Shown here in pieces: positions 46,604 to 62,295 of a stretch of DNA of 64,000 nucleotides. This DNA is from an uncultured Verrucomicrobiota bacterium (GTDB taxonomy: Bacteria > Verrucomicrobiota > Kiritimatiellia > Kiritimatiellales > Pontiellaceae): contig CAJYAJ010000001.1 in the NCBI GenBank assembly GCA_913065005.1, forward strand, positions 28,561 through 92,560. The letters are read 5' to 3'. The notes beneath the pieces were generated by a model. It was not told the DNA's origin. It searched no databases and worked only from the letters and a program-made list of their open reading frames with translations. The first letter of the stretch is position 1. Each line of letters opens with the position of its first letter. The position numbers and the translations under genes were made by a program.

Positions 46604-46885
46604 ATGGCAGAAGCAGCAGCAAGACATATTTTAGTCGCAACAGAAGCGGCGTGTACTGATTTGAAAGAACAGATTGCAAGCGGGGCGGATTTTGCGGCGC
46701 TGGCGCAGGAGCATTCGCAGTGTCCAAGTGGGGCGCAGGGGGGTGCGTTGGGAACGTTTGGTCGAGGTCAAATGGTGAAAGAGTTTGATGAAGTGGTTTT
46801 CAGTGCGCCCGTAGGTGAGGTGCAGGGACCGGTTCAAACACAGTTTGGTTTCCACTTGGTGGAAGTGACGCAGCGTACAGATTAA
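46604..46885 (+). CDS. Parvulin-type (PpiC) peptidyl-prolyl isomerase
   Basis: 93 aa; [83 protein letters not shown]. Confidence 0.94.
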
Positions 46886-47871
46886 GTGCGTTCGGGGGGC
46901 GTGAGCCCAAACTTGGCATAGGCGCGGTCGGTTGCGACGCGCCCTTGTGAGGTTCTTTTTAAAAACCCTTCCTGTATGAGGTAGGGTTCATACACTTCTT
47001 CGAGGGTGTCGGCTTCTTCGCCGACGGAGACTGAGAGGGAGTTGAGTCCAACGGGCCCTCCGTTGAATTTTTCGATGAGGGTGGTGAGCAGTCGTTTGTC
47101 CATCTCTTCGAGGCCGTCGTCGTCGATATCCAGGAGGTTAAGGGCTTGGTCGGCGAGGTTGGCGGTGATGATGTTATCGGCTTTGACTTGCGCATAATCG
47201 CGGGCGCGGCGTAATAAATTGTTGGCAATTCGGGGGGTTCCACGGGATCGGCGGGCAATTTCGATGGCGCCGTCTTCTTCGAGCTTGACGTTGAGAATGT
47301 GTGCGGAGCGTTGGAGGATCGTGGCTAGGGTGGTGGCATCGTAGTAGTCGAGTCGGTTGGTGAGTCCGAAGCGGGAGCGCATGGGGGCGGAGAGCATTCC
47401 GCTACGGGTTGTGGCACCGATGAGGGTGAAGGGGGGCACGTTGAGGCGAACGGAGCGGGCGTTGGGTCCTTGATCAATCACGATATCGATCACGAAGTCT
47501 TCCATGGCGGAGTAGAGATATTCTTCTACGGAGCGTTGCATGCGGTGAATTTCGTCGATGAAGAGAACGTCTCCGCGTTCGAGACTGGTGAGAAGGCCGG
47601 CTAGATCGGAGGGTTTATCGATGACGGGACCGGAGGTGCATTTGATGTTGGCATCCATGGCGTCGGCTAGGATGTAGGAGAGGGTGGTTTTCCCGAGACC
47701 GGGAGGGCCGCAGAGGAGGACGTGGTCTAGGACGTCACCGCGCTCTTTGGCGGCTTGGACGAAGAGTTCGAGGCGTTCTCGAATTTTGTCTTGTCCAGTA
47801 AAGTCGGAAAAACGGGAGGGTCGGAGCTTTTGCTCAAATTCGATGTCGGGTGTGATGATTTCGCTGTTCAT
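46882..47871 (-). CDS. ruvB: Holliday junction branch migration helicase RuvB
   Basis: [78 protein letters not shown]. Confidence 0.97.
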
Positions 47872-47916
47872 GATTTTCCATGAAGCCACAGGGATGACGG
47901 CTTGTCACGCGGTTTT

Positions 47917-49368
47917 CTATGCAGCGTTGATGATTTGTTTCCATTTCTGACGAGCGGTTTGCCATTCGGAGGTGTGGGTGGGGGGGTAGCTCTCCATTTC
48001 TTGGGCGAAGGAGTTGCGGATGAGGGTGCGTCCGGCGGCAAGGTCGGTCAGGTCGCCGAGGGCGATCATTTGCATGATGCAGTTGCCGATGGCGGTGGCT
48101 TCGGCGGGTCCGGAGTGGACGGGGCGGGCGGTTGCATTGGCGGTCATTTGATTGAGCAGGTGGTTGCGTCCGCCGCCGCCAACAATCCGAATGCAATCGA
48201 AGGTGCGTTCGCTAAGTATTTCGAGATCGTCGAGTGTTTCGGCATATAAAAGAGCGAGTCCTTCGTAGGCGATGCGAATGGTTTGGGCGTGGTTTTGGGG
48301 AATGGGTTGGTGTGTTTCTTGGCAATATTCGCAGATACGTTGGTGCATATCGCCGGGGGTAAAGAAGCGTTCATCTGCGGGGTTGATGAAGGCGTGAAAG
48401 GGTTCGGCGGCTTGAGCCATTTCAACCATCTGGGTGAAGGTATATTCGTGTCCGTGCTGTTTCCAGATACGTTGTAGTTCTTGAATGATCCATAAGCCGT
48501 TTAAGTTTTTGAGGAAGCGGATGGTGTTGCAAACGCCGACTTCGTTGGTGAAGTTTTTTTCGAGGACGTTGTTGTTAATGCGGGGCTTGGGTAGTTCACA
48601 GCCTAGGAGCGACCAAGTTCCAGAGCTAAGGAAGGCGGCTTGTTCGTTGGGTTGGGTGGGTACGGCGGCGAATGCACAGGCGGTATCGTGGCCTCCGGCG
48701 GCGATGACCGATACGCCATCTACGGTTCCGATTGGGGTTCCGGGGTCAACGAGGTCGGCAAATAGATCGGTTCGAATGCCGGTGGTTTGGAGTAGATCAT
48801 GCGCCCAGGTTTGGGTTTGTGGGTTGTAGCATTGGGAGGTACTTGCGATGGTGCGTTCGGCAATTTTTTGTCCGGTTAGCCAGTAGGTAAGGAGGTCGGG
48901 GGAGAAGAGGAGTTGGTGTGCATGGGTGTAGGCGGGTGCGTTTTGTAGGTGTAAGGCATAGAGTTGATAGAGGGTGTTGATCTCCATGAATTGGATGCCG
49001 GTTTGTTCAAATATGTGTTCGCGTGAACTTTTTTTGAAGAGGGCGTTAAACATGCCGTTGGTGCGTTCGTCGCGATAGTGAACAGGATTTTGGAGGAGGC
49101 TTCCGGTGGTGTCAAGTAGCCCGAAGTCAACGCCCCATGTGTCAATTGAGAGGGAGCGTACGGGGTATTGATTTTGAGCGGTGGCGAGCCCTTCTCGGAG
49201 TTGGCGATAGAGATGGAGAAAATCCCAGTGGAGGTGGCCTTGGAGATCAATGGGTCCATTCCAGAAGCGGTTAATCTCATGAAGTTGAAGTTGATCGTTT
49301 TCGATGTGCCCGGCAATGGTTCGTCCGCTTGAGGCGCCGAGGTCGATGGCTAAGTAGGTTTCGCTCAT
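47917..49368 (-). CDS. rhaB: FGGY-family rhamnulokinase-like sugar kinase
   Basis: 483 aa; YLAIDLGASSGRTIAGHI, LSIDTWGVDFGLLD, GGHDTACAFAAVP, FLSSGTWSLLGCE, RIVGGGGRNHLLNQMTANA. Confidence 0.85.
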   Translation of the reverse strand: MSETYLAIDLGASSGRTIAGHIENDQLQLHEINRFWNGPIDLQGHLHWDFLHLYRQLREGLATAQNQYPVRSLSIDTWGVDFGLLDTTGSLLQNPVHYRDERTNGMFNALFKKSSREHIFEQTGIQFMEINTLYQLYALHLQNAPAYTHAHQLLFSPDLLTYWLTGQKIAERTIASTSQCYNPQTQTWAHDLLQTTGIRTDLFADLVDPGTPIGTVDGVSVIAAGGHDTACAFAAVPTQPNEQAAFLSSGTWSLLGCELPKPRINNNVLEKNFTNEVGVCNTIRFLKNLNGLWIIQELQRIWKQHGHEYTFTQMVEMAQAAEPFHAFINPADERFFTPGDMHQRICEYCQETHQPIPQNHAQTIRIAYEGLALLYAETLDDLEILSERTFDCIRIVGGGGRNHLLNQMTANATARPVHSGPAEATAIGNCIMQMIALGDLTDLAAGRTLIRNSFAQEMESYPPTHTSEWQTARQKWKQIINAA

Positions 49369-49379
49369 GCTTCTTTTTC

Positions 49380-50645
49380 CTATAGGCGGGGCGCATGTTC
49401 AAGCAGGAATTTTTCTGCTTCGGGGCTCCAGAGTCCTTGGTGGGCGGTGACGATTCGATCGAGTTCGCGGTAGAATTCGCCGGGCTGGTTGGCGAGTTCG
49501 GTGAGGGCGACGAGGGGGAAATCGAAATGGGTATAGATCAATTTTTTGCCGCCGGGAATATCGGGTAAATTGAGGGTGGTGTTGATGACTGCATTTAATC
49601 CACCGATGTGGGTGATGAGTCCGGAGGGGTTGACGCGTCCGCTGGCCATGAGTTCGAGTGATTCGATCATGTCGTGTGTGTTGCCGCCGCTGGTGCCTAC
49701 GACATGCGTGGCGGCGTAGTGGACGTTGTAGAAGTTGAATGCGGCGGAAAATTGGGGGTCGGTGGGGCCGGCAAAAAAGTTGAGGCATCCGTCGAATCCA
49801 AGTAGCTGATCTGCTTGTTCGAGTAGCGGTGCGACGGGGGCATAGACAAATACATCGTCGAATCCATGTCCTTCGGGGGAGAGGGCTTTGAGCTCTGGGG
49901 TGGAAACGTTGAGGCTGTTGATATAGTGCAGTTCAACTCCGTGGTTTGCGGCGTCTTCGATGGTGTAGAGTGCGGCGGCTCGGTCGATGAGTTTCTGATC
50001 AATCCCTGTCACGATGACTTGGCTGGGGCGGCGGTCGCAGTGGATAATATAGTCGATGGCGCCGAGACCCATGGGGCCGACGCCGCCGAGGAGTGCGAGG
50101 GAGCCTCCTTCGACGATCCCCATTTTGTGTTCATAGCTGCCGGGGGTGGTGTGATAGTTGGCGTGAAAAGCACCGATGACACAGGAGAGGGGTTCTGCGA
50201 GGGAGCCGAGGTAGTAGGCATCGCCTTTGAAGGGGAGTAGGCAGTTGTTTTTCATGACCTCGGCGGGAATGATAACGTGTTGCGCATCGCCGCCGATATG
50301 GGGGTAGGAGTAGCCGGGGGCGGAGAGGATGCCGACGGGTCCGGTGGGGTCGTTCAGTGCGGGTTGAATAGAGAATTTTTCACCGGGGGTGAATTGATCT
50401 TTCCAGGCGGTGCCTACTTCAAGAATTTTCCCGCAAAACTCGTGACCGATCATAATCGGTTCGTTGGCGATGGCGTTGGGAATGCGCTTATGTTTGGTGC
50501 CTTGTGTGGAGGCTTTGTAGGAGGACATACAGATCGAATCGGAAACAATCTCGGCCAGAATTTCATCGGGCTGGATGGCGGGCAAATCAAGGTCGTCGAG
50601 GCGTAAGTCTCGTTCACCGTGAAGTCGAATGGCTTTTGTTTTCAT
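49380..50645 (-). CDS. Zinc-type MDR dehydrogenase resembling L-sorbose-1-phosphate reductase (SorE-like)
   Basis: 421 aa; KAIRLHGERDLRLDDLDLP, DSICMSSYKASTQGTKHKR, IGHEFCGKILEVG, GVGPMGLGAIDYIIHCDRRPSQVIVTGID; no four-Cys structural zinc lobe. Confidence 0.7.
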   Translation of the reverse strand: MKTKAIRLHGERDLRLDDLDLPAIQPDEILAEIVSDSICMSSYKASTQGTKHKRIPNAIANEPIMIGHEFCGKILEVGTAWKDQFTPGEKFSIQPALNDPTGPVGILSAPGYSYPHIGGDAQHVIIPAEVMKNNCLLPFKGDAYYLGSLAEPLSCVIGAFHANYHTTPGSYEHKMGIVEGGSLALLGGVGPMGLGAIDYIIHCDRRPSQVIVTGIDQKLIDRAAALYTIEDAANHGVELHYINSLNVSTPELKALSPEGHGFDDVFVYAPVAPLLEQADQLLGFDGCLNFFAGPTDPQFSAAFNFYNVHYAATHVVGTSGGNTHDMIESLELMASGRVNPSGLITHIGGLNAVINTTLNLPDIPGGKKLIYTHFDFPLVALTELANQPGEFYRELDRIVTAHQGLWSPEAEKFLLEHAPRL

Positions 50646-50656
50646 TTCATTTTCCT

Positions 50657-51730
50657 TTAGTTGAGCATGACTTGACCGCCGGTAACGGGAAGGGCTTGTC
50701 CGGTTTCATATTGTTGTTCTACGCGATATAAAATGGCTTTGAGAACATCGTTACTGGAGCAGCCACGTCCCATTGGGATTTGAGCTTCGTAGTGGCGGCG
50801 AACGTCTTCGATGGTTTGGGCGCCGGGCACTTTTCCGCTTTCGAGATATTGGACGAATAGACCGGTGGTGGGATCGGACCAGAGCGGACCATCAAAGAAG
50901 TTTCCGGGGCAGACTGTATTCACTTTGGTGCGATCTTCAACGAGCTCTTTGGCGAAACTTTGGACGAGCCCAATCGAGCCGAATTTAGATCCGGCATAGG
51001 CGGCATTGCGATTGGAGCCTTCGAGTGCGGACTTGGAGGTGATGCTGATGATATCGGTTGCATAGTTGCCAGAAGGGCGGTTCATGCGCTCCATTATGGG
51101 CGCTACGTGTTTGGTGCAGAGAAAGAATCCGAGGTAGTTGACATCGGTTACAAATTCAAAATCAGCTTTGCTGAGTGTTTTGACGCTACCGGCTTTGAGC
51201 ACGCCGGCATTGCTGATAAAGAGATCTATGCCGCCGACTTGCTGAACGATGGATTGAATCATGGATTGAACGGAGGCTTCGTCGGTTACGTTGCAGGCGA
51301 GGGGTAAGGCGGTTGTGCGGCCGGCTTTCTGATTTAGTTCATGGGCGAGTGTTTCGGCGCCTTCCAAGTTGAGATCGGCAATAAATACGAGCGCACCTTG
51401 ATCGCAGAGTCCGCGAACAATTCCTTCGCCAAAGCCTTGGGCTCCTCCGGTTACGACGGCGACACGGTTATGAACGGTGGCTGCGCGGCCTGAGGCGTGG
51501 GGTGCGTGGGATGTGCCGTTAACGGCATCGTCATAGTCGGCTCCAATGAGAAAGAATCCGACCTCTTTGATGTGAACGGAGCGGGTTGTTGGCGTGAGCT
51601 GGCTGGCTAGTTGTTCGTAGGTGCAGGTGAGTTCGGGTTGGTCGAGGTGTTCTACATGATGGACGATGGCACTGGATGTACCGTTAAAGGTGTGTCCGCG
51701 GAGAAGCGGTGCGATGTCGAATGAGTTCAT
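50657..51730 (-). CDS. SDR oxidoreductase resembling sorbitol-6-phosphate 2-dehydrogenase (SrlD-like) with about 85-aa N-terminal extension
   Basis: 357 aa; VAVVTGGAQGFGEGIVRGL, catalytic YAGSKFG, C-terminus IPMGRGCSSNDVLKAILY...TGQALPVTGGQVMLN. Confidence 0.75.
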   Translation of the reverse strand: MNSFDIAPLLRGHTFNGTSSAIVHHVEHLDQPELTCTYEQLASQLTPTTRSVHIKEVGFFLIGADYDDAVNGTSHAPHASGRAATVHNRVAVVTGGAQGFGEGIVRGLCDQGALVFIADLNLEGAETLAHELNQKAGRTTALPLACNVTDEASVQSMIQSIVQQVGGIDLFISNAGVLKAGSVKTLSKADFEFVTDVNYLGFFLCTKHVAPIMERMNRPSGNYATDIISITSKSALEGSNRNAAYAGSKFGSIGLVQSFAKELVEDRTKVNTVCPGNFFDGPLWSDPTTGLFVQYLESGKVPGAQTIEDVRRHYEAQIPMGRGCSSNDVLKAILYRVEQQYETGQALPVTGGQVMLN

Positions 51731-52962
51731 AGCAACTCCTTTATATTTTCAGGTTGGTGGGGATTCATGTTTCGTCCGATGGTAGCATAGTGTTGTACAC
51801 GGGTTTCAAGGGATTGATCGATAAGTGGGTTTTCAGGATGAAAGAGGCCGAGGGTTTCGTTTTGTGCGGCGCATTTTTCGTGAGCAATGAGAGCCCAGGC
51901 GGCATCGCAGAGGTGCTGAAAGGCGGGGTCGAGAAGAATGGGGCAGTTAAATGATTGGCGGGAGCTGTTGATATCTACTCCGCTTATTTCCATGAGCCCG
52001 TGATGATGGCATAGCTGCTGGAGGCGTTGGAGTTGTTTGTGCGTATTGCGGGGTGGCATATAGGTGATGGCTTGAAAGCCGAGCTCTTTCAAGGTGTTGA
52101 TAAGCTGATCGAGGAAGCTGTCTTCAAAGGTTTGTGCTCGTTTGTCGCCGGTTGGTGATTCGGAGACGTCGCCGAGGTAGGCGTAGGCGGGAATGGCATG
52201 GATGCTTCGTGCAAAGGCAGCGGCGTCGCGGGCGGAGGGGCATTCATCGGTTCCGGAGGGAATAAAAAAGTGGGGCACGAGTTCGGCTTTTAGGAAGCCG
52301 AGTAAATCATAGATCCGGTGGGGATTTGACTCTTCGTGAAGCTGGTGAGCTATTTTTTTGGAGGGGGATAATCCGAGGTGTTCGTTTAAAAAGGTGGTGA
52401 GCGCTTCTCCGTTTCCGTGTTGTTGGATTAATTTTTTAGCGAGGGCAAAACAAATGTGCCTTTCGGTGATGGTTCCTCCTTCTTGTATGCGTGAGCAGGG
52501 TTGTATGTCGGTCGCAAAGTCGAGCGTGGGGCCGTGACGCTGTTGTAACCACGCATTGAGTTTTTCGGTTTCCGCTTGGCTCCGTTTGAGGCGTGCGGCA
52601 CGAATGGGTTTGAGAAATTGGTCTGTGGCTTCAAATTGGTTGGCGGGAATGCCATGGAATGCGATGTAGATTATATTGGGTTCATCGGGGTTGTTGACGC
52701 GTTTACCCTCCAAGGGGGTCCCATTGAGATGCACACGGATTTCACATCCGACGGTTGCGGCAATGCCATTGGAGCGAGCGGCGGTAAGAAATTCTGGGCC
52801 GCCTGCAATCGCGTCGTGGTCCATCAATCCAACTGTTTTTAGCCCGGCTTCTACGGCGGCTTCGGTAATTTGCGTCGGGGAGTAGGGGCTAAATGAGTAG
52901 GTGGAGTGAACGTGGTTGTTCACTTCTTCCGGTTGATGGGGATTAGACGCCGAGGTTTGCAA
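51727..52962 (-). CDS. PHP-domain protein (putative metal-dependent phosphoesterase)
   Basis: 411 aa; [44 protein letters not shown]. Confidence 0.85.
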
Positions 52963-55396
52963 TGCGTGTTAACTCCTCTCGGGTGTAGTTTTGTTTGGGC
53001 GTGTATCCGTTTAAGGGGAGGATACGCTCATGAATGGCATCGATGATCCAGTCGGCTTGTGGGTAGTACTCTTTTTCCATTTCGGCGGCGGGAGAGATCC
53101 AGTTTTTTGCGCCAATCACTACGGGGGGTGCATCGAGGTGGTCGAAGCAGAGGGTGGTGAGGTTGGAGGCGATGGTGTGCAGGGCGGAGCCTCGTTCGAC
53201 GGCATCTGAAGCTAATACTACGCGTCCTGTTTTTCGGATTGATTCGATCAATACGTCGTAGTTGAGGGGGTTGACGAAGCGGAGATCAATGACTTCAACA
53301 TCGAGTCCATAGGTCTGTTTGAGTTCGTCTGCTGCGGGTATGCCGCTGTAGAGTACGGGTCCGAGTGTGACGAGAGTTAGGTCGGTTCCTTCGCGGCGCA
53401 CGATGGGTTGTCCTTCTTCGGTTTCGTAATAGCCTTCTGGAACGCCTGCGGTTTCAAACTGTTCTCCGATCCCGTATGTTTTTTGGGATTCAAAAAAGAC
53501 AACTGGATCGGTTCCGTTTAGAGCGAGGTTGAGCATGCCTTTCGCGTCGGTGGGTGTGGCAGGATAGAATACTTTGAGCCCGGGTATGTGGGCCACGAGT
53601 GCGGTCCAGTCTTGCGAGTGTTGGGCACCGTATTTGTTGCCGACGGAGACGCGAAGTACGAGGGGCATATTGAGAATGCCGGCCGACATCGATTGCCATT
53701 TTGCCATTTGGTTGAAAATTTCGTCTCCGGCTCGACCCATAAAGTCGCAGTACATGAGTTCGGCGCAGACGCGGCCTCCGCTCATGGCATATCCGCAGGC
53801 GGTGCCAACAATGGCGGCTTCGGAGATGGGGGAGTTGAAGAGGCGGTGGTAGGGGATGGATTCGGTTAATCCGCGGTAGCAGGCAAAGGCGCCGCCCCAG
53901 TCACGATTTTCTTCGCCGTAGGCGATGAAGGTGGGATCGGTGTGGAAGCGGTGTAGCATGGCTTCAAAGATGCCGTCGCGGTAGGTGTAGATTTTATTTG
54001 CGGAAAAGGGTTTTCCGCTTGAGTCAAAGGCGTAGCGCTCTTTGCGTGCGAGTTGGTTGTTGCGGGGGTTCTCTTCGCGGGCTAGGAGTACCTCTGGTTC
54101 GCGGTCATCCATTTTTTCGACGGACTGATTCGAAAACATAACGGATTCGATGAGGTTGATATCGGAGTAGGGCGAGCGTTCGGTATCGGTTGCAAGCTCA
54201 AGAGTTCGTCTGATTTTTGCGGTGGTGTTTTTTTGTAGTGCTTCGAGTTGTTCGGTTGTGAGAGCTCCGTTTTCGATGAGGTAGGCTCCGTAGCTTTTAA
54301 CGCAATCGACTTCTTCCCAGAGCTCCATCTCTTCTTTGGAGCGATAGGAGGAGGCATCGGAGGGCGAGTGTCCGGACATGCGGTAGGTGACGATGTCGAG
54401 GAAGGCGGGTCCTTTGCCGGAGGCGAGAATTTCTTTTTTGCGTTGCGTGGCGTCTGCCACGGCAAGTGGATTATAGCCATCTACCCGTTCGGCGTGCATT
54501 TGGTCAGGATTAATACCTGCGCCTACCCGAGCGGCCATATCGAAGCCCATGGTTTCGCCGGCGGTTTGTCCTCCCATGCCGTAGTGATTATTCATGATGT
54601 TGAAGAGAACGGGGGGGCGGCCAAACGAGTCGTCCCAGAGATCGTTAAATTGATCCATTGATGCGAAGGAGAAACTTTCCCAAACGGGTCCGCAACCCAG
54701 TGAAGCGTCACCGATGTTGGCAATGACCATGCCGGGCTTTCGGTTGATCAGTTTGAAGAGCGCTGAGCCGAGAGCGATATCAGCCGAACCCCCGACGAGG
54801 GCGTTGTTGGGCATGGAGCCAAATGGAATAAAAAAGGCATGCATGGAGCCGCCGAGCCCGCGGTTAAACCCTGTGTCGCGAGCAAAAATTTCAGCCAGTG
54901 TGCCGTAAAGGACGAATGCTTCTGCTTGTTCTCGCGTGGTGGCATGCGCTTCGTCCTTAATGGCATTGAAGGTGGCGCCATCGAAGAAGGTCTCCATGAT
55001 GGTGGTTAAACTTTGATCGTCGAGTTGATGAATGGCAGAAAAGCATTTGGCAAGAATTTCGCCGTGGGAGCGGTGTGAGCCGAAGATAAAATCTTCCGGT
55101 GAGAGGTGTACGGCTTGACCGACTGCGGCCGCTTCTTGGCCAATGGAGAGGTGGGCGGGGCCGGGGTGGTTGTATTCGACTCCTTCGTAAGCACCTTGGG
55201 TTTTGATCAAATTAAGCATGGTTTCAAATTCACGAATGATCAGCATATCTTCATAGATGCGAATGAGTCGTTCTTTACCGTGGGTTTTGAGCTCTTTTTT
55301 AAAGTTAGATTGATATTGGTTAGCTGGAATCGGCTGAAAGGTAATTTCACTCGATTGACGGGTCTTTTTAGGATCAATAATTTGTTTTTTTGGCAT
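52943..55396 (-). CDS. Fused alpha/beta E1 component of a 2-oxoacid/acetoin-type dehydrogenase complex (TPP-dependent)
   Basis: 817 aa; TPP motif [19 protein letters not shown]...NNHYGMGGQ in the alpha half; transketolase-like beta half [71 protein letters not shown]. Confidence 0.9.
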
Positions 55397-55415
55397 GGTT
55401 TATCGCTTCTTTCTT

Positions 55416-56657
55416 TTAATAAAGGGTTTCAAGTAGAGTGAGTTCGATGTTGCTTATCTTTTCACGTAGATGAGCGATGAAGCGTGCTGCGGGTGCTCCG
55501 TCGGCGGCGCAATGGTCAAAGGTGAGTGAGAGTCCCATGTGGGGAATAAATTCAGTTTCAGATCCGTTCATGATGGGTTTTGGCTGAATAGCGCATACGC
55601 CCAGAATAGCTACTTCGGGGGCATTCAAAACGGGGGTAAAACTTTCAATACCCATGGCGCCGAGGTTCGTGACGGTGAAGGTGCCACCTGTTAAATCATC
55701 GGGATCGATCGCTCCTTCGATGCAGTTGCTAGCGAGTCGTTTGGCTTCGGCTGAGAGTTCGAGGAGTGAGAGGGTGTTTGCCTTTTTTATGACGGGAACC
55801 ATTAGCCCGCGTGGGGTATCGACAGCAAATCCGAGGTGAATATTTTCGTATTGGATGCTTCGATCCCCTGCCCAGTGAGCGTTGAGCTCGGGGAAGGCGT
55901 TAAGGGCTTTGACTGTGGCATATAGAACGGTGTCGTTGATGCTAACTTTACCAAATTTTTCTTGGCGTTCGGGTTGTTTGCAAAGCTGTCTAAAGCGAAG
56001 GATAGAGCGTGCGTCTACCGAACTATTTAAGGTGAGCTGTGCGGTGGTTTGGAGTGAGTTGAGCATGCGCTCCGCAACTACTTTACGGATGCCTTTGGCT
56101 GGAATCTCAGTTTGCTCGCCTAGATCTCCGGGAGGTAATGGTGCCGTTTTCTGCGGGGTGGGTTTGGCTGCGAGCACATCTTGTTCGATAACCCTTCCAT
56201 GGGGGCCGCTTCCGGTTAGTTGCGTGATATCTATGCTTCGTTGAGCAGCGGTTGTGCGTGCACGGGGTGAGCTGATGAATTCAGATGCATTCGATGAGTT
56301 TGTTGTGGCGGGGATTGAGGGTTTTGGCGGTTGACTCTGGGTGAAGTCTGGAGCGGATGTTGCGTCTGCATCTGGCTCGGGCTGCGCGGAAGCGTTTTTC
56401 CAGGCAGAAACATCTTCTCCATTTTCACCTACAATGGCGATGGGTTTAAGCACCTCTACGTCGGCATCGGCTTCATGCAGGATGGCTAGTAATTCGCCGG
56501 TTGCGGTTGATTCCACTTCAAAGGTGGCTTTATCGGTTTCGACTTCACAGAGAATATCGCCTTCTGTAATCGGATCGCCTTCTTGTTTTTTCCATTCGAT
56601 GATGATGCATGATTCAACGGATTGTCCTTGGCGGGGCATAAGAATTTCGGAGGCCAT
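55416..56657 (-). CDS. Dihydrolipoamide acyltransferase (E2) of a 2-oxoacid/acetoin-type dehydrogenase complex
   Basis: 413 aa; lipoyl domain (CEVETDKATFEVESTATGEL), E3-binding-like domain (ISSPRARTTAAQRSIDITQLTGSGPHGRVIEQDV), catalytic domain ending LSLTFDHCAADGAPAARFIAHLREKI. Confidence 0.92.
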   Translation of the reverse strand: MASEILMPRQGQSVESCIIIEWKKQEGDPITEGDILCEVETDKATFEVESTATGELLAILHEADADVEVLKPIAIVGENGEDVSAWKNASAQPEPDADATSAPDFTQSQPPKPSIPATTNSSNASEFISSPRARTTAAQRSIDITQLTGSGPHGRVIEQDVLAAKPTPQKTAPLPPGDLGEQTEIPAKGIRKVVAERMLNSLQTTAQLTLNSSVDARSILRFRQLCKQPERQEKFGKVSINDTVLYATVKALNAFPELNAHWAGDRSIQYENIHLGFAVDTPRGLMVPVIKKANTLSLLELSAEAKRLASNCIEGAIDPDDLTGGTFTVTNLGAMGIESFTPVLNAPEVAILGVCAIQPKPIMNGSETEFIPHMGLSLTFDHCAADGAPAARFIAHLREKISNIELTLLETLY

Positions 56658-56670
56658 AATCTATTTCCTG

Positions 56671-57429
56671 TTATGTGGTTTTAATAACGCGAACACGTGC
56701 TTTTTGGAGCGCTTGTTCTTCGGCGGCGGGAAGGTGGGAGTCTGTAATTAAAATATCGGCATCCGTGTAGGGAATAATGCGTGCAAACCCGGGGGAGTTA
56801 AATTTTTCTGAATCGGAGAGGACGATGACTTCGTCGGCTTGTTGTGCCATTTTTCGAACGAGCTCGGCGCTTTCAAGAAAGTGAGCGGTGAAGCCTTGTT
56901 TTTCAGAGGCACCATCGATGCCGATGAATGCTTTGGAGACATGAAATTGATCTAGAGAAGCCATAGCCATCGGGCCAATCATGCCTTCTTCAGAGGGGCG
57001 GAACTCTCCGCCAATGAGGGTGATGCGAACTTGCATGTTAATGCGTGCAAAGCTGAGTAGGAGGGTGTTATTGGTGACAATATGAACATCTTTTTTGCCG
57101 ATAAGATATTTTGCAATGAGGGCGGTGGAGGTTCCGGCTGTAACGATTACGGTTTCTCCATCATCAATAAGGCTGGCGGCGGTTTGAGCGATGGCTGATT
57201 TTTCTTCTCGCTTGGTTTGCATGCGTTTCATGAGTTTTGGATGGCGGGAAGGTACAGCACCACCGTGGGTGCGGATGAGAAGCCCTTCGCTTTCCAATGC
57301 GGCTAAATCGGAGCGGGCGGTAACGACGGTTACCCCGAGTTTTTCAGAAATTTTTGTTACGCTGACACTGTTTTCATCGGTCAGCATTTGTAAAATTTTC
57401 TCTTTTCGATCTACGATGCTCGCTTGCAA
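56671..57429 (-). CDS. DeoR-family transcriptional regulator
   Basis: 252 aa; RKEKILQMLTDENSVSVTKISEKLGVTVVTARSDLAALESEGLLIRTHGGAV; sugar-phosphate sensor-like GIDGASEKQGFTAHFLESAELVRKM. Confidence 0.93.
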   Translation of the reverse strand: MQASIVDRKEKILQMLTDENSVSVTKISEKLGVTVVTARSDLAALESEGLLIRTHGGAVPSRHPKLMKRMQTKREEKSAIAQTAASLIDDGETVIVTAGTSTALIAKYLIGKKDVHIVTNNTLLLSFARINMQVRITLIGGEFRPSEEGMIGPMAMASLDQFHVSKAFIGIDGASEKQGFTAHFLESAELVRKMAQQADEVIVLSDSEKFNSPGFARIIPYTDADILITDSHLPAAEEQALQKARVRVIKTT

Positions 57430-57625: not shown

Positions 57626-58426
57626 CTAGAAGTCGGGGTTTTGAGTTGTAAATCGATCTTCGACTTGCGGGAGGTGTGGAGTTAGTTGAGATCGAAGATA
57701 GGACTGATTTTTTCGATGTGCATTGCGACGCAGGGCGAGCAAGAGGCTGCTCAGTGTGATGAAGCCGACGGTGTGTGGCTCGGGAATAAGTGCTACGGAG
57801 TCGATATAGACATCTCCATAATGGTCTTGAGCCACGGCACTGAATGCGCTGCCTTGAGATATAATTCTGATTGCGGCTACATCCGTGAAAACGTCATTGA
57901 AAGATCCGGAACCAGGAGATCCATTTTCCATGGCACTGGATGCTTTGACCATGGTATTTGAATTGAGATCAAAATTCATCAATGACCATCCATCGTTATT
58001 TTGAACGACTCGTAAATTATCGGATACAAACCAAGTTCCTGACATCGGGTTTCTTGTATTCCCTATCGCTATTCTGAAGTATAAAGGATCACCAAGTCCG
58101 GCATTCCGTGCATAAAAACGTATGCTGGTAACGCCTTTTGAGGAATAATTTCCGGTCCAGCTTTCTTGATCATTCCAAACGATAACTCCTCTTTTAGGGT
58201 TAGTTCCTATGGGGTCTAGATACAGATATGGGTTATTGATGCTTAATCCATTTGCATTAGTTGTTGTAACCCAGAGCCCTTGTCCATGATTCCACCCATC
58301 TGTTCCTTGAGAAAAATCGGCAGTTACAATAGATGAATGAGCTATGTGAACTAAAAACAATAGGAGCGGGAGGCTATGGAGGATAACTTTATGCACTGAT
58401 ATAATAACTTCCACTCGGGTTCCCAT
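57626..58426 (-). CDS. PEP-CTERM-sorted secreted protein
   Basis: Start near 58426 (MGTRVEVIISVHKVILHSLPLLLFLVHIAHSSIVTADFSQGTDGW); C-terminal IPEPHTVGFITLSSLLLALRRNAHRK. Confidence 0.7.
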   Translation of the reverse strand: MGTRVEVIISVHKVILHSLPLLLFLVHIAHSSIVTADFSQGTDGWNHGQGLWVTTTNANGLSINNPYLYLDPIGTNPKRGVIVWNDQESWTGNYSSKGVTSIRFYARNAGLGDPLYFRIAIGNTRNPMSGTWFVSDNLRVVQNNDGWSLMNFDLNSNTMVKASSAMENGSPGSGSFNDVFTDVAAIRIISQGSAFSAVAQDHYGDVYIDSVALIPEPHTVGFITLSSLLLALRRNAHRKNQSYLRSQLTPHLPQVEDRFTTQNPDF

Positions 58427-59978
58427 CAAGCATGCCCAATGGATACGCGTTCTCTGCGGGGGTAAAGAACTTTTCGCAATTTGGAAAAATAAAAGGTAGG
58501 TCTGCTGAATCAACCCCAAACCATGAAGAGAGTTCACTGAGATATGCATCTGCCGACGTAGTAGGCAAAACGCGCCCGCGAGCTTTATCCAAATGTTTAT
58601 CTAGGTCTAAGCCGTTGTTGATGGGATCTAGCACGGGGTAGGAACCATAAATTTTTCCGCCTTTGAGGGGACCTCCTAAGGTGACGTCGGTATTTCGTCC
58701 GCCTCCCATAACAAATGCGTTACCACCCCATGCATGATCAGAACCTTGTCCATTCGAGGTAAGGGTTCTGCCGAAGTCAGAAATAGTAAATAGAATAACT
58801 TCGTCTTGTAGATTTGCGGCGGTTAATTCGTTCCAGAAGTATTCGATGGCTTCGTTAATTTCATAAAAAAGGCCGTCTGCACCATCTTCTAGATTGCCGT
58901 TGTAGTTAGGGTTAGAAGCATAGGCGATGCCTCCTTGAGCGTTTAATAACTCATTGTGATGATCCCAACCGCCTCGTTCGACAAAGAATAGTTGTCGATT
59001 CATGCCTAAATGATTTTTGCCCGCTTTTATCGATTTGATGACGCCGGCAAATTGTTCGGCCGTTTTATTTTTCGAAGAACTAGTTGTATTGGGTGCAGTG
59101 GCATTTAGGGATGCAAGGTCGAATGCTTCTCCAAACTCTTCGGCCAATCGAATCGCATTTTTTTGTTTCTGAGCATAGGTGTTTTCAAACATATTTGGGT
59201 ATACGTCTGTCATAATGCTGTTCACAGCATTGGATAGAATGCCATCATAATTACGCAGTAGACTCGGCCCCCCGGGTGAGGTTACATACGGTTCTGTGTA
59301 GAATCCGGTCTGGAATGTATTGTTGCCCGCCATTGAAATATTCATTCCAACTTTTCCGTTTATATTTGCTTGAGTGAAGATATCCGCGATCCGTCCTCCC
59401 CATCCTTTTGGAGTGGCTCCACGAGTTTGTGGTCTGAGTGTTTGCCAATGCATCTGATGGTCGGGATGAGAAAAGAGACCGAGCGGGAGGTTTGCGCTAC
59501 CTTGTTGATAGCTAGTTATGGTCGTCGGTTCGATAAGGGAGCCTACATTCGCTACAAAGGCAAGGTCGCCCGCATCAAAACGAGTCTTTAAGAACGGTAG
59601 ACGGGGATGAACAGAGTAACGGTTGGCAGGTTGGCCTTGGACTGCTTTTAATCGCGTAGCCAGTAAAGCATTCCGGTCGATTGCAAGTCCTGTACCTAAT
59701 GATGAATCCTTAAAGCCATTAGCATCTGTTCCAACACCTCCTCGCGCTGCTGCATATCCATCATATCCATCAATGCCGCCGTTTTGCTGTGAGTAGGGTA
59801 TTAACATATTAAAGGAGTCGTTTCCTCCGTTTAGAAACAGACAAACCATGGCTTTATATCCATCCGTATTCATGGCTGCACCGGCGGTCATCCGCATGGT
59901 GCAGAGGGTGGAATAGAGGGATGCCATACCGATGGCGGAACAGTTTTTTTGAAGAAAAGAGCGTCGGTTTGAGTTCAT
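58389..59978 (-). CDS. DUF1501 domain protein
   Basis: 529 aa; RRSFLQKNCSAIGMASLYS signal, VCLFLNGGNDSFNMLIPY, FFVERGGWDHHNELL, FTISDFGRTLTSNGQGSDHAWGGNAFVMGG. Confidence 0.93.
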   Translation of the reverse strand: MNSNRRSFLQKNCSAIGMASLYSTLCTMRMTAGAAMNTDGYKAMVCLFLNGGNDSFNMLIPYSQQNGGIDGYDGYAAARGGVGTDANGFKDSSLGTGLAIDRNALLATRLKAVQGQPANRYSVHPRLPFLKTRFDAGDLAFVANVGSLIEPTTITSYQQGSANLPLGLFSHPDHQMHWQTLRPQTRGATPKGWGGRIADIFTQANINGKVGMNISMAGNNTFQTGFYTEPYVTSPGGPSLLRNYDGILSNAVNSIMTDVYPNMFENTYAQKQKNAIRLAEEFGEAFDLASLNATAPNTTSSSKNKTAEQFAGVIKSIKAGKNHLGMNRQLFFVERGGWDHHNELLNAQGGIAYASNPNYNGNLEDGADGLFYEINEAIEYFWNELTAANLQDEVILFTISDFGRTLTSNGQGSDHAWGGNAFVMGGGRNTDVTLGGPLKGGKIYGSYPVLDPINNGLDLDKHLDKARGRVLPTTSADAYLSELSSWFGVDSADLPFIFPNCEKFFTPAENAYPLGMLDGNPSGSYYISA

Positions 59979-59988
59979 ATCTAGGCTC

Positions 59989-62295
59989 CTAATAGAGTGA
60001 ATTAAATTCAGGGGTTAAGCAGAGAAGCCATATGGCGTTCTCTACACGGGTTTTACGTTGTGTTGCATTTCCTGCGGGCAGCGAGTCGATATGGTTTTTG
60101 ATGGTGGTTCGGTTGGCTTGTGTGAGGCGTCCAGCGGTCACTAAGGTGTTTAGTTGGTCTATCAGATCCTCGCTGTCTGCAGCGATATTGATCTGATCTG
60201 TGAGGTCTAGACGGCCCTGAGGATACCATTTTGATCCGATACCAAAATCATCGTCATCTCTTTCAATACCGGTGTAAATCAACCAGTGCAGGGCATTGGG
60301 AAGGCCGATAGATGTTACATCTGTAATAGGCTGAAATTCAGGTGCATTTAAGTTTTCATCTTGAACAGGGCCATTGGGCTGAAAATCAGGTCTGTAAAAA
60401 TTAAATACATTGGGATATTCATAGGGCTCTTGAGCGATCTTAAGATACAGATTGCTAAATGGATAAAGACCATAGGTTTGCAAGGATTCGATTTTAAAGG
60501 CTCTTGCATAACTCATGAATTTGATGAGAGGTTCTCTAAATTTTCCAAATGTTTGGTCTGCTTGAAGTGAAGGAGTGCGGGCTTCTGGATGAAGTAAGAT
60601 CGCGGCTATAACGGCTTCCAAGTTTCCTCGATCTCCAGATTGTCCAAAGGTGTTGCTTCCGCTTGTAAAAACGCCGGTTTTGAATGCCTGAGCCACATCC
60701 GAAATATAGGTGGGAGATGGATTTGATACGGTAAAGCGTTGAATGAGCTGATGAGCCACAAAAGGGGGTGTGTTTGTATGATTAAACAGCTGATCGAGAA
60801 CGTAACCGATATCCTTTCTTATCGCGTCTTCATAACCTGCGCCTCCCCATTGGTTCGTGAATGGTTGATCATATAAATCTATTTTAGGATTATAGTCATG
60901 TCGCCAACTTATGAATCTCATTTCATCAATGTAATTTTGATTTTGGTACTCTTCATAGTTCGGATATGCAGATGTATTAACATAAACAAATTTACTAGGC
61001 TTATCTAGTCCGGTAAAAACTTTGGCAAATTCTGAAACATCCTCATTATCGTAGGTTGGAATTTCTTCGCCGTCGCCATTTCGTTTCAGCGTGCCATCTT
61101 CATTTAATTGCCATAAACCAATGGTGAAAAGTTGCATGACTTCCCGCGCATAGTTTTCATCTGGGAATGAATCGTCTGGGGTGTTGAGTTGATCGCCTGA
61201 TTTGGTATTCAGCTCATAGGTTAGATAATAACCCATTTGAGGATGATAGGTTACTTCGTCAAGAATATCTCTGTAGTTGCCAAAGGCGTTACGTACAAAT
61301 ATATCATAATATGTTACAAATCTTTCAGTGGCTTGCGGGTGCTGTGATCCTTCACGGCCGATAACAAAGATTTGACTTAAGGCCCATGCCATTCGTTGCC
61401 GTAGTTGATCTTCAGCATCGATAGCGATGGTATACCAGATCACTTTCTTCTGATTTTCTATGTTAGATCCGCCCGCATTAGCATCGTTTGGGTTAGATGT
61501 TTTTTGCGCTCCAGTTGAATCCGTATTAGCAAGCCAGTCGTTATAGCGATTTTCCTCTACATAACTCGTGTTCCCCCATGGACTTGTCCAGGTGACAATG
61601 GTAGAAATTTCTCCAAGATTATTCTGATAATTAGGAATGGCATTTACACCAGATCCATTCGGTTGCTGGTTATTCCCACCTGTCCAATAATTGAAGGCGG
61701 GTTGATCTAAATCATCATTATATGCAACCTGATACAGGCTGGTTCCGTTGTTTGTTGCCGCCGGATTTGCAATAAATGCGGGGTTGCTGCGTTCGCGGAA
61801 GTACGCTCGGTGGGAAGTGATGGGAAGGTCAATTTGAGTTTGAATCCAATTTGCATAATCTGTGTATGGCGAATCATTCAGGTTCGAGTTATTTATGCCG
61901 AGGAAGTTAGTTATCGTATCAAGAGTTGGTCCAAATGTAGTTTGTTGCAAAAAACGCGAAATGGAGTTTGTGTTGTTGAGCGATTGAACGGAGTTGGTGG
62001 ACAGTCGGTAATAGACTTGTGGATGGTTTAAATTGCGTTCATGCATCGCCGTGCCGTTGACGTTCGTGATGGTTTCGGTATGGGGAAAAGTGTTTTGCCA
62101 AGTTGTTCCGAAATTACGTGCAACGGATTGCCAGTCGGTGAGGTTGGTTGACCATTCGACGATTTGATAGGTATTGGAGGAAGATGAGGTGGGTAAAAAA
62201 ACTTGAAATTTGTCGTTTTGAATACTGGTTTGGAGACCGTATGTCGTGCATACGAGTGCGAATAATCCAAAGATCATTAGTAGGTGTGTTTTCAT
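59989..62295 (-). CDS. DUF1800 domain protein
   Basis: 768 aa; SISRFLQQTTFGPT, MAWALSQIFVIG, DEVTYHPQMGYYLTYELN, DENYAREVMQLFTIGLWQLNEDGT, VAHQLIQRFTVSNPSPTYI. Confidence 0.93.
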   Translation of the reverse strand: MKTHLLMIFGLFALVCTTYGLQTSIQNDKFQVFLPTSSSSNTYQIVEWSTNLTDWQSVARNFGTTWQNTFPHTETITNVNGTAMHERNLNHPQVYYRLSTNSVQSLNNTNSISRFLQQTTFGPTLDTITNFLGINNSNLNDSPYTDYANWIQTQIDLPITSHRAYFRERSNPAFIANPAATNNGTSLYQVAYNDDLDQPAFNYWTGGNNQQPNGSGVNAIPNYQNNLGEISTIVTWTSPWGNTSYVEENRYNDWLANTDSTGAQKTSNPNDANAGGSNIENQKKVIWYTIAIDAEDQLRQRMAWALSQIFVIGREGSQHPQATERFVTYYDIFVRNAFGNYRDILDEVTYHPQMGYYLTYELNTKSGDQLNTPDDSFPDENYAREVMQLFTIGLWQLNEDGTLKRNGDGEEIPTYDNEDVSEFAKVFTGLDKPSKFVYVNTSAYPNYEEYQNQNYIDEMRFISWRHDYNPKIDLYDQPFTNQWGGAGYEDAIRKDIGYVLDQLFNHTNTPPFVAHQLIQRFTVSNPSPTYISDVAQAFKTGVFTSGSNTFGQSGDRGNLEAVIAAILLHPEARTPSLQADQTFGKFREPLIKFMSYARAFKIESLQTYGLYPFSNLYLKIAQEPYEYPNVFNFYRPDFQPNGPVQDENLNAPEFQPITDVTSIGLPNALHWLIYTGIERDDDDFGIGSKWYPQGRLDLTDQINIAADSEDLIDQLNTLVTAGRLTQANRTTIKNHIDSLPAGNATQRKTRVENAIWLLCLTPEFNSLY

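Follow-up and report, generated by a model that had tools for sequence, protein, structure and literature searches.

In a 64-kb stretch of DNA (64,000 nucleotides; "the window") from a metagenome-assembled genome (MAG) of an uncultured member of the Pontiellaceae (phylum Verrucomicrobiota), we analyzed a seven-gene operon that very likely is a genuine functional cluster linked to the use of 6-deoxyhexoses. It encodes a DeoR-family regulator, the E2 and a fused E1 of a thiamine diphosphate (ThDP)- and lipoyl-dependent complex, a PHP-fold protein, a short-chain dehydrogenase/reductase (SDR), a medium-chain dehydrogenase/reductase (MDR), and an FGGY kinase. Judged from this gene content, the operon probably represents a variant form of 6-deoxyhexose breakdown whose cleavage step is novel; we lean, by a modest degree, toward reading it as the back half of L-fucose catabolism (in relatives, also L-rhamnose catabolism) ending in ThDP/lipoyl ketol cleavage. 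A wider proposal is more tentative, and we rate it as possible with the balance slightly against it: many phyla would share a third, convergent 6-deoxyhexose route, in which L-fucose and L-rhamnose are flipped to 1-deoxyketose-6-phosphates and a new fused class of E1/E2/E3, a "1-deoxyketose-phosphate dehydrogenase," converts these directly to acetyl-CoA plus a single shared tetrose phosphate, without passing through lactaldehyde or 1,2-propanediol.

The seven open reading frames (ORFs) run head to tail on the minus strand (Table 1), and all seven families were confirmed with Pfam and NCBIfam. Gaps are short (DeoR/E2, 13 bp; E2/E1, 19 bp; SDR/MDR and MDR/kinase, 11 bp each), and E1/PHP and PHP/SDR overlap by 20 and 4 bp, respectively; the operon structure described in an earlier, sequence-only reading of the window was thus confirmed. 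The window's own genome (G000; 79% complete) encodes FucI, with all three of its domains, at the edge of contig C18, together with two GH29 alpha-L-fucosidases, a sulfatase, and an MFS transporter. Among genomes of the genus and its sister family (other G labels denote genomes of the same phylum), FucI or RhaA was found in 12 of 13 that bear the operon (G000, G050, G127, G160, G228, G248, G304, G029, G081, G130, G003, and G322), versus none of the four that lack it (G035, G087, G384, and G032; Fisher P of ∼0.002, calculated by hand and ignoring relatedness). G127, G228, and G248 were counted through FucI. In G304, the genes immediately before DeoR are RhaA and a class II aldolase. Both the FucI and GH29 fucosidases of G000 and the way in which FucI/RhaA tracks the operon in relatives support the 6-deoxyhexose pathway that the sequence-only reading had suggested. 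The mutarotase FucU was considered for a small gene close to FucI in G228, but the gene had no Pfam match and the assignment was dropped.

Known reactions suggest how the parts may fit together. FGGY rhamnulokinases produce ketose-1-phosphates, SorE reduces L-sorbose-1-phosphate at C2, SrlD oxidizes glucitol-6-phosphate at C2, and acetoin dehydrogenase splits CH3-CO-CHOH-R into acetyl-CoA and an aldehyde. In the proposed route, FucI would form L-fuculose and the FGGY kinase would phosphorylate it to L-fuculose-1-phosphate; the SorE-like MDR would then reduce C2 to give L-fucitol-1-phosphate, and the SrlD-like SDR would oxidize C5 to give 1-deoxy-D-tagatose-6-phosphate, the latter step being the 6-deoxy analogue of the conversion of galactitol-1-phosphate to tagatose-6-phosphate. 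E1/E2 and a shared E3 could cleave the acetoin-like CH3-CO-CHOH end of this product to acetyl-CoA and a tetrose-4-phosphate, predicted to be D-threose-4-phosphate if the MDR has SorE-like facial selectivity and L-erythrose-4-phosphate if its selectivity is the opposite. L-Rhamnulose-1-phosphate would pass by the same steps through 1-deoxy-D-sorbose-6-phosphate to the same tetrose, because the C4 center that distinguishes the two sugars becomes the aldehyde carbon. D-Erythrose-4-phosphate was rejected as the E1 product, since stereochemistry worked out by hand gives C2-left tetroses from both sugars. The tetrose phosphate would be isomerized and enter the pentose-phosphate pathway via transketolase or transaldolase. 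Rhamnose users have an additional protein of the class II aldolase family, which may act on L-rhamnulose-1-phosphate by aldol cleavage or by C4 epimerization. From the kinase step on, we infer substrates and reactions, as well as the isomerization and the role of PHP; gene families, their conservation, FucI, E3, and the missing class II aldolase of G000 are taken from sequence.

The identities of the sugar-phosphate enzymes are consistent with this scheme. The MDR is 50 to 52% identical over 99 to 100% of its length to three annotated SorE proteins (Klebsiella, Citrobacter, and Serratia), in support of the SorE-like assignment in the sequence-only reading, and 49% identical to YggP. In our tree, it falls within the broader SorE/YggP family, and SorE proteins of phosphotransferase system (PTS)-sorbose operons form a separate clade that does not contain it. 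Among 213 SDR models, the window SDR best matched PRK12384, sorbitol-6-phosphate dehydrogenase (221 bits, below the cutoff of 307), and its best solved structure was also a sorbitol-6-phosphate dehydrogenase (5o3z; 150 bits versus 113 for the next); the SrlD-like assignment is supported, and the SDR is only 28% identical to that of annotated sor operons. The kinase scored 468.8 bits against the rhamnulokinase model TIGR02627 (below its cutoff of 527.95) and 128 against the fuculokinase model.

The fused E1 forms a clade of its own, which we call E1(a), with 100/100 support and a stem length of 1.94. It is sister to a second fused type and is separated from the E1s of annotated plasmids (branched-chain, acetoin-type, and others); the window E1 thus does not group with the acetoin type, which is represented by a single anchor set, assigned because it lies beside 2,3-butanediol dehydrogenase, in a tree with no certain Gram-positive PdhAB. 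The sequence-only reading had asked for such a tree; the separate placement of E1 counts in its favor. The arginine R498 (window numbering) is invariant in the E1(a) clade and rare elsewhere, and is possibly a phosphate ligand. The E2 has the catalytic motif DHCAADG, read off the sequence. In most relatives, E3, a dihydrolipoyl dehydrogenase scoring above the curated cutoff, is encoded in the operon between E2 and E1; the window operon has no E3, and G000 encodes one elsewhere (contig C8; 512 bits), which settles the earlier question of its source. The PHP protein retains H-x-H, D, E, and ERH motifs, and its AlphaFold model (pLDDT of 92.7) is nearest among solved folds to PHP phosphoesterases such as 2yb1 (E value of 1.7e-11), an amidohydrolase of the PHP family whose structure contains Mn, AMP, and phosphate; it is probably a phosphatase.

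Homologues of E1(a) with 53 to 54% identity occur in Rhizobium and Agrobacterium. The E1(a) of Rhizobium sp. CIAT894 and A. tumefaciens is accompanied by an alpha/beta hydrolase and a lipoyl protein, corresponding to the components of AcoC, the E2 of acetoin dehydrogenase, and is surrounded by sugar kinase, mannitol dehydrogenase, or transaldolase genes. Separately, three loci (L labels denote related stretches) on Rhizobium, Agrobacterium, and Sinorhizobium replicons (L196, L197, and L236) place an acetoin-dehydrogenase-like E1 near genes for sugar ABC transporters and sugar kinases and alongside AcoC-like parts, which suggests further sugar pathways ending in ketol cleavage. The second fused E1 type (∼765 amino acids [aa]; 39 to 44% identity), the sister of E1(a), is widespread in the phylum (G110, G124, G325, and others; L238 to L242).

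A search of 388 genomes of the phylum detected the MDR in 92 (E value of ≤1e-20) and E1 (≥53% identity) in 68 (counted from the scan table). Genomes of the genus and sister family share the order DeoR-E2-(E3)-E1-PHP-SDR-MDR-(pyrophosphatase)-kinase, where parentheses mark genes that are not always present, followed in some by transketolase and phosphohexomutase. This order is kept at 50 to 76% protein identity (DeoR, in the same place, at 57 to 68%) and recurs, with rearrangements, in other phyla; it is thus not due to chance, and this conserved neighborhood supports the earlier reading. The fuller cluster in relatives comprises RhaA/FucI, DeoR, E2, E3, E1, PHP, SDR, MDR, and kinase, plus transaldolase and/or transketolase, and the window operon is a trimmed copy of it. 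For example, a single 34-kb contig of G228 carries FucI, an MFS transporter, kinase, transaldolase, DeoR-E2-E3-E1-PHP-SDR-MDR, and transketolase, and G003 has DeoR-E2-E3-E1-PHP only. Five genomes have a transketolase gene after the kinase or MDR; no transketolase was seen within the window, and no family search for it was made in G000. Transaldolase/fructose-6-phosphate aldolase (TAL_FSA) genes occur in 4 of the 10 relatives searched (G127, G228, G248, and G160); in all four, a copy adjoins the operon or FucI. Such placement of transaldolase and transketolase points to a tetrose or pentose phosphate product. The earlier gene list was right about its seven genes, and it missed that relatives have E3 between E2 and E1 as well as RhaA/FucI, transaldolase, and transketolase genes, and that the SDR contains a fusion relic, described below.

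A scan of bacterial and archaeal species genomes confirmed at least 573 related stretches. Many genomes may therefore carry misnamed "pyruvate dehydrogenase" genes of the E1(a) type. The best 80 loci come from Verrucomicrobiota (Kiritimatiellales and Opitutales), Spirochaetota, Bacteroidota, Calditrichota, Clostridia, Atribacterota, Chloroflexota, and Propionibacteriaceae. Of these 80 E1(a) loci, 57 have the SDR, 55 the MDR, 45 PHP, 27 a class II aldolase, and 17 the kinase; within ∼10 kb, RhaA occurs at 11, TAL_FSA at 9, a mannitol-dehydrogenase-family gene at 8, and FucI at 7, compared to a rough chance expectation of ∼0.3 to 0.4 per single-copy gene in 80 windows of ∼17 kb (the loci are nonindependent and span several phyla). 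Other recurrent neighbors are RhaT, lipoate-protein ligase, and a two-domain class II aldolase. Two Calditrichia loci (L114 and L124) combine E1 and MDR with a mannitol-dehydrogenase-family gene and have no SDR, which points to a polyol-phosphate oxidation step. The gene cluster is widespread and apparently undescribed: we found no earlier description of this combination in the literature searched, whose coverage excludes most subscription journals and preprints.

The sequence-only reading had called the pathway aldolase free, and here it needs correction. No match to the class II aldolase family (PF00596) was found in G000 (79% complete), G127 (92%), G248 (96%), G301 (87%), or G047 (95%). FucI is present in all of these except G301; G127 and G248 are congeners with both FucI and the operon, and G047 has FucI and an E1(a)-type E1. 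In contrast, relatives with RhaA carry a class II aldolase, mostly a protein of ∼350 to 400 aa adjoining RhaA; G174, G139, and many Bacteroidota carry the aldolase as a fusion with the SDR. Intact fusions are 621 aa (L041) and 682 aa (L092) long; that of L092 scores 319 bits against the RhaD_aldol-ADH family model (cutoff, 568). The window SDR aligns with both, having kept 80 linker residues and lost the aldolase catalytic domain; it thus has no fused aldolase domain with metal ligands, as a bifunctional RhaD_aldol-ADH would. Since the aldolase accompanies RhaA in relatives and none was found in these four FucI-bearing genomes, it goes with rhamnose, and the fucose branch appears not to need it. 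We therefore retain the absence for G000, G127, and G248 and reject it as a general property; in the rest of the earlier route, the sugar class, the SorE and SrlD assignments, the separate E1, and the conserved neighborhood are supported.

Several of these observations, and some others, weigh against the proposed fucose route. Absence of the aldolase from a 79%-complete genome is weak by itself (that from G127 and G248 is stronger), RhaA-bearing relatives carry a class II aldolase, mostly adjoining RhaA, and the aldolase-SDR fusion fits an SDR that acts on an aldolase product such as lactaldehyde. G301 has the operon, yet neither FucI nor RhaA was found in this 87%-complete genome. Some E1(a) genomes (e.g., G103) lack FucI, RhaA, and this MDR; in many genomes, the MDR is present without E1(a). 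PHP is conserved in the cluster without having a place in the route. Because the tetrose would be D-threose- or L-erythrose-4-phosphate rather than D-erythrose-4-phosphate, at least one isomerase or epimerase is missing, and no TAL_FSA gene was found in G000.

We consider one alternative unlikely, although less so than the next two: a class II aldolase would release dihydroxyacetone phosphate and L-lactaldehyde, the SDR (as RhaEW) and MDR would oxidize lactaldehyde, and E1/E2/E3 would form acetyl-CoA from pyruvate, as pyruvate dehydrogenase (PDH) does, or from methylglyoxal. In support, relatives have the aldolase adjoining RhaA, and L041, L092, and many Bacteroidota loci have it joined to the SDR; the fusion resembles RhaD_aldol-ADH, and its relic is kept in the window SDR. 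However, G000, G127, G248, and G047 combine FucI and E1(a) with no class II aldolase, so no source of lactaldehyde was found in them; the MDR belongs to the SorE family of ketose-phosphate reductases; and the transaldolase/transketolase and mannitol-dehydrogenase-family genes of the cluster would be left unexplained. It is also conceivable, if quite improbable, that the early steps proceed as proposed and a TAL/FSA-type aldolase then cuts the 1-deoxyketose-6-phosphate at C3-C4 to hydroxyacetone and glyceraldehyde-3-phosphate, with E1/E2/E3 acting on hydroxyacetone or a derivative. Fructose-6-phosphate aldolase favors hydroxyacetone as a donor, and TAL_FSA genes of FSA size (221 aa) lie beside the operon in Pontiellaceae and some Bacteroidota; yet six operon-bearing genomes (G000, G301, G050, G304, G081, and G029) have no TAL_FSA gene that we could find, and acetyl-CoA formation from hydroxyacetone would release formaldehyde, for which the cluster has no known sink.

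A third possibility, improbable in our view, makes E1/E2 an ordinary 2-oxoacid dehydrogenase for pyruvate or branched-chain substrates that merely neighbors a sugar operon. The closest curated models for E1 and E2 are indeed those of PDH, though with scores far below cutoff; E1(a) and the second fused type, E1(b), were not seen together in the phylum scan, as if interchangeable; and AceE is lacking in both genomes checked (G139 and G363), although these have pyruvate:ferredoxin oxidoreductase (PFOR). Against this, E1(a) is a separate, long-stemmed clade that accompanies FucI, RhaA, SDR, MDR, and PHP in unrelated phyla and has AcoC-like partners in Rhizobiaceae, and G000 has AceE (contig C9; 1347 bits), PFOR (contig C8; 1569 bits), and another fused E1, which excludes the window E1 as the genome's only PDH.

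The proposed ketol-cleavage route shares an isomerase (FucI/RhaA) and an FGGY rhamnulokinase-like kinase with the classical FucI-FucK-FucA and RhaA-RhaB-RhaD pathways, and rhamnose-using relatives also show the class II aldolase and RhaEW-like SDR layout of the RhaD_aldol-ADH/RhaEW variants. Unlike these, the operon has no fucose-type kinase, no class II aldolase was found in G000 or two FucI-bearing congeners, and a SorE-type reductase, an E1/E2(/E3) complex, and PHP are added. As in the L-sorbose pathway, a SorE-family reductase and an SrlD-like SDR would carry out C2 reduction and then far-end oxidation, but here a kinase replaces PTS phosphorylation, and the proposed 6-deoxyketose-1-phosphate substrate would give a methyl-ketone product. 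Acetoin dehydrogenase (AcoABCL) likewise consists of a ThDP E1, a lipoyl E2, and E3 and would be matched in its CH3-CO-CHOH-R cleavage; in contrast, the window E1 is fused and in a separate clade, the E2 is PDH-like (PF00198) rather than AcoC-like, and the operon lacks acetoin or butanediol genes. GatD, which converts galactitol-1-phosphate to D-tagatose-6-phosphate, performs the same stereochemical reaction as that proposed for the SDR, but GatD is an MDR, and its product undergoes phosphorylation and aldol cleavage instead of ketol cleavage.

Brown-algal fucoidan, ulvan, pectin, and gut mucin count fucose and rhamnose among their major sugars, and the known phosphorylating route leads to lactaldehyde and, under anoxia, 1,2-propanediol. 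Pontiella desulfatans F1, also of the Pontiellaceae, produces H2, acetate, and ethanol, with minor succinate and lactate, when fermenting L-fucose; it forms no 1,2-propanediol, which P. sulfatireligans F21 does form (PMC6388578). In addition, fucK was not found in F1 or F21, nor aldA in F1 (PMC7356697). The proposed route, if correct and present in F1, would explain fucose fermentation by F1 without 1,2-propanediol and would fill this published gap. Direct formation of acetyl-CoA would also change the fermentation products and energy yield expected of many marine and gut anaerobes, and deoxyketose phosphates would be a new substrate class for 2-oxoacid-dehydrogenase complexes.

Table 1. Features of the operon in the window, in order of transcription
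Feature	Coordinates	Strand	Basis
DeoR-family regulator, DeoRC sensor and HTH_DeoR; first gene of the operon	56671-57429	-	PF00455/PF08220
E2 with lipoyl, E3-binding, and acyltransferase domains	55416-56657	-	PF00364, PF02817, PF00198
Fused E1 alpha-beta, 817 aa, ThDP dependent; E1(a) clade	52943-55396	-	PF00676 + PF02779 + PF02780
PHP-fold metallo-phosphoesterase, 411 aa; probable phosphatase	51727-52962	-	PF02811
SDR, sorbitol-6-phosphate-dehydrogenase-like; proposed 6-deoxyhexitol-1-phosphate C5 dehydrogenase	50657-51730	-	PRK12384, 5o3z
SDR residues 1-80, linker relic of aldolase-SDR fusion	51491-51730	-	Alignment with L041 and L092 fusions
MDR, SorE/YggP-family zinc dehydrogenase; proposed ketose-1-phosphate C2 reductase	49380-50645	-	SorE identity, tree
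FGGY kinase, rhamnulokinase-like; proposed 6-deoxyketulose 1-kinase	47917-49368	-	TIGR02627

Directly after the kinase, 27 bp away on the same strand, lies ruvB (46882-47889); on the other side of the operon (57626-62295) are a gene that we take to encode a PEP-CTERM-like protein and two whose products, by eye, presumably resemble a DUF1501/DUF1800 pair. In L043 and L045, from other families of the phylum, a SorE-like MDR directly follows ruvB without the operon, and in L043, L045, and L049 a SorE-like MDR lies ahead of dnaK/groEL genes; these genomes lack E1(a). An inorganic pyrophosphatase gene follows the MDR in L036, L037, L040, and L109 to L111. Finally, G000 and G301 are MAGs of 1.2 Mb, compared to 1.9 to 6.3 Mb for congeners; the operon is kept in both, which suggests that it matters in small genomes.

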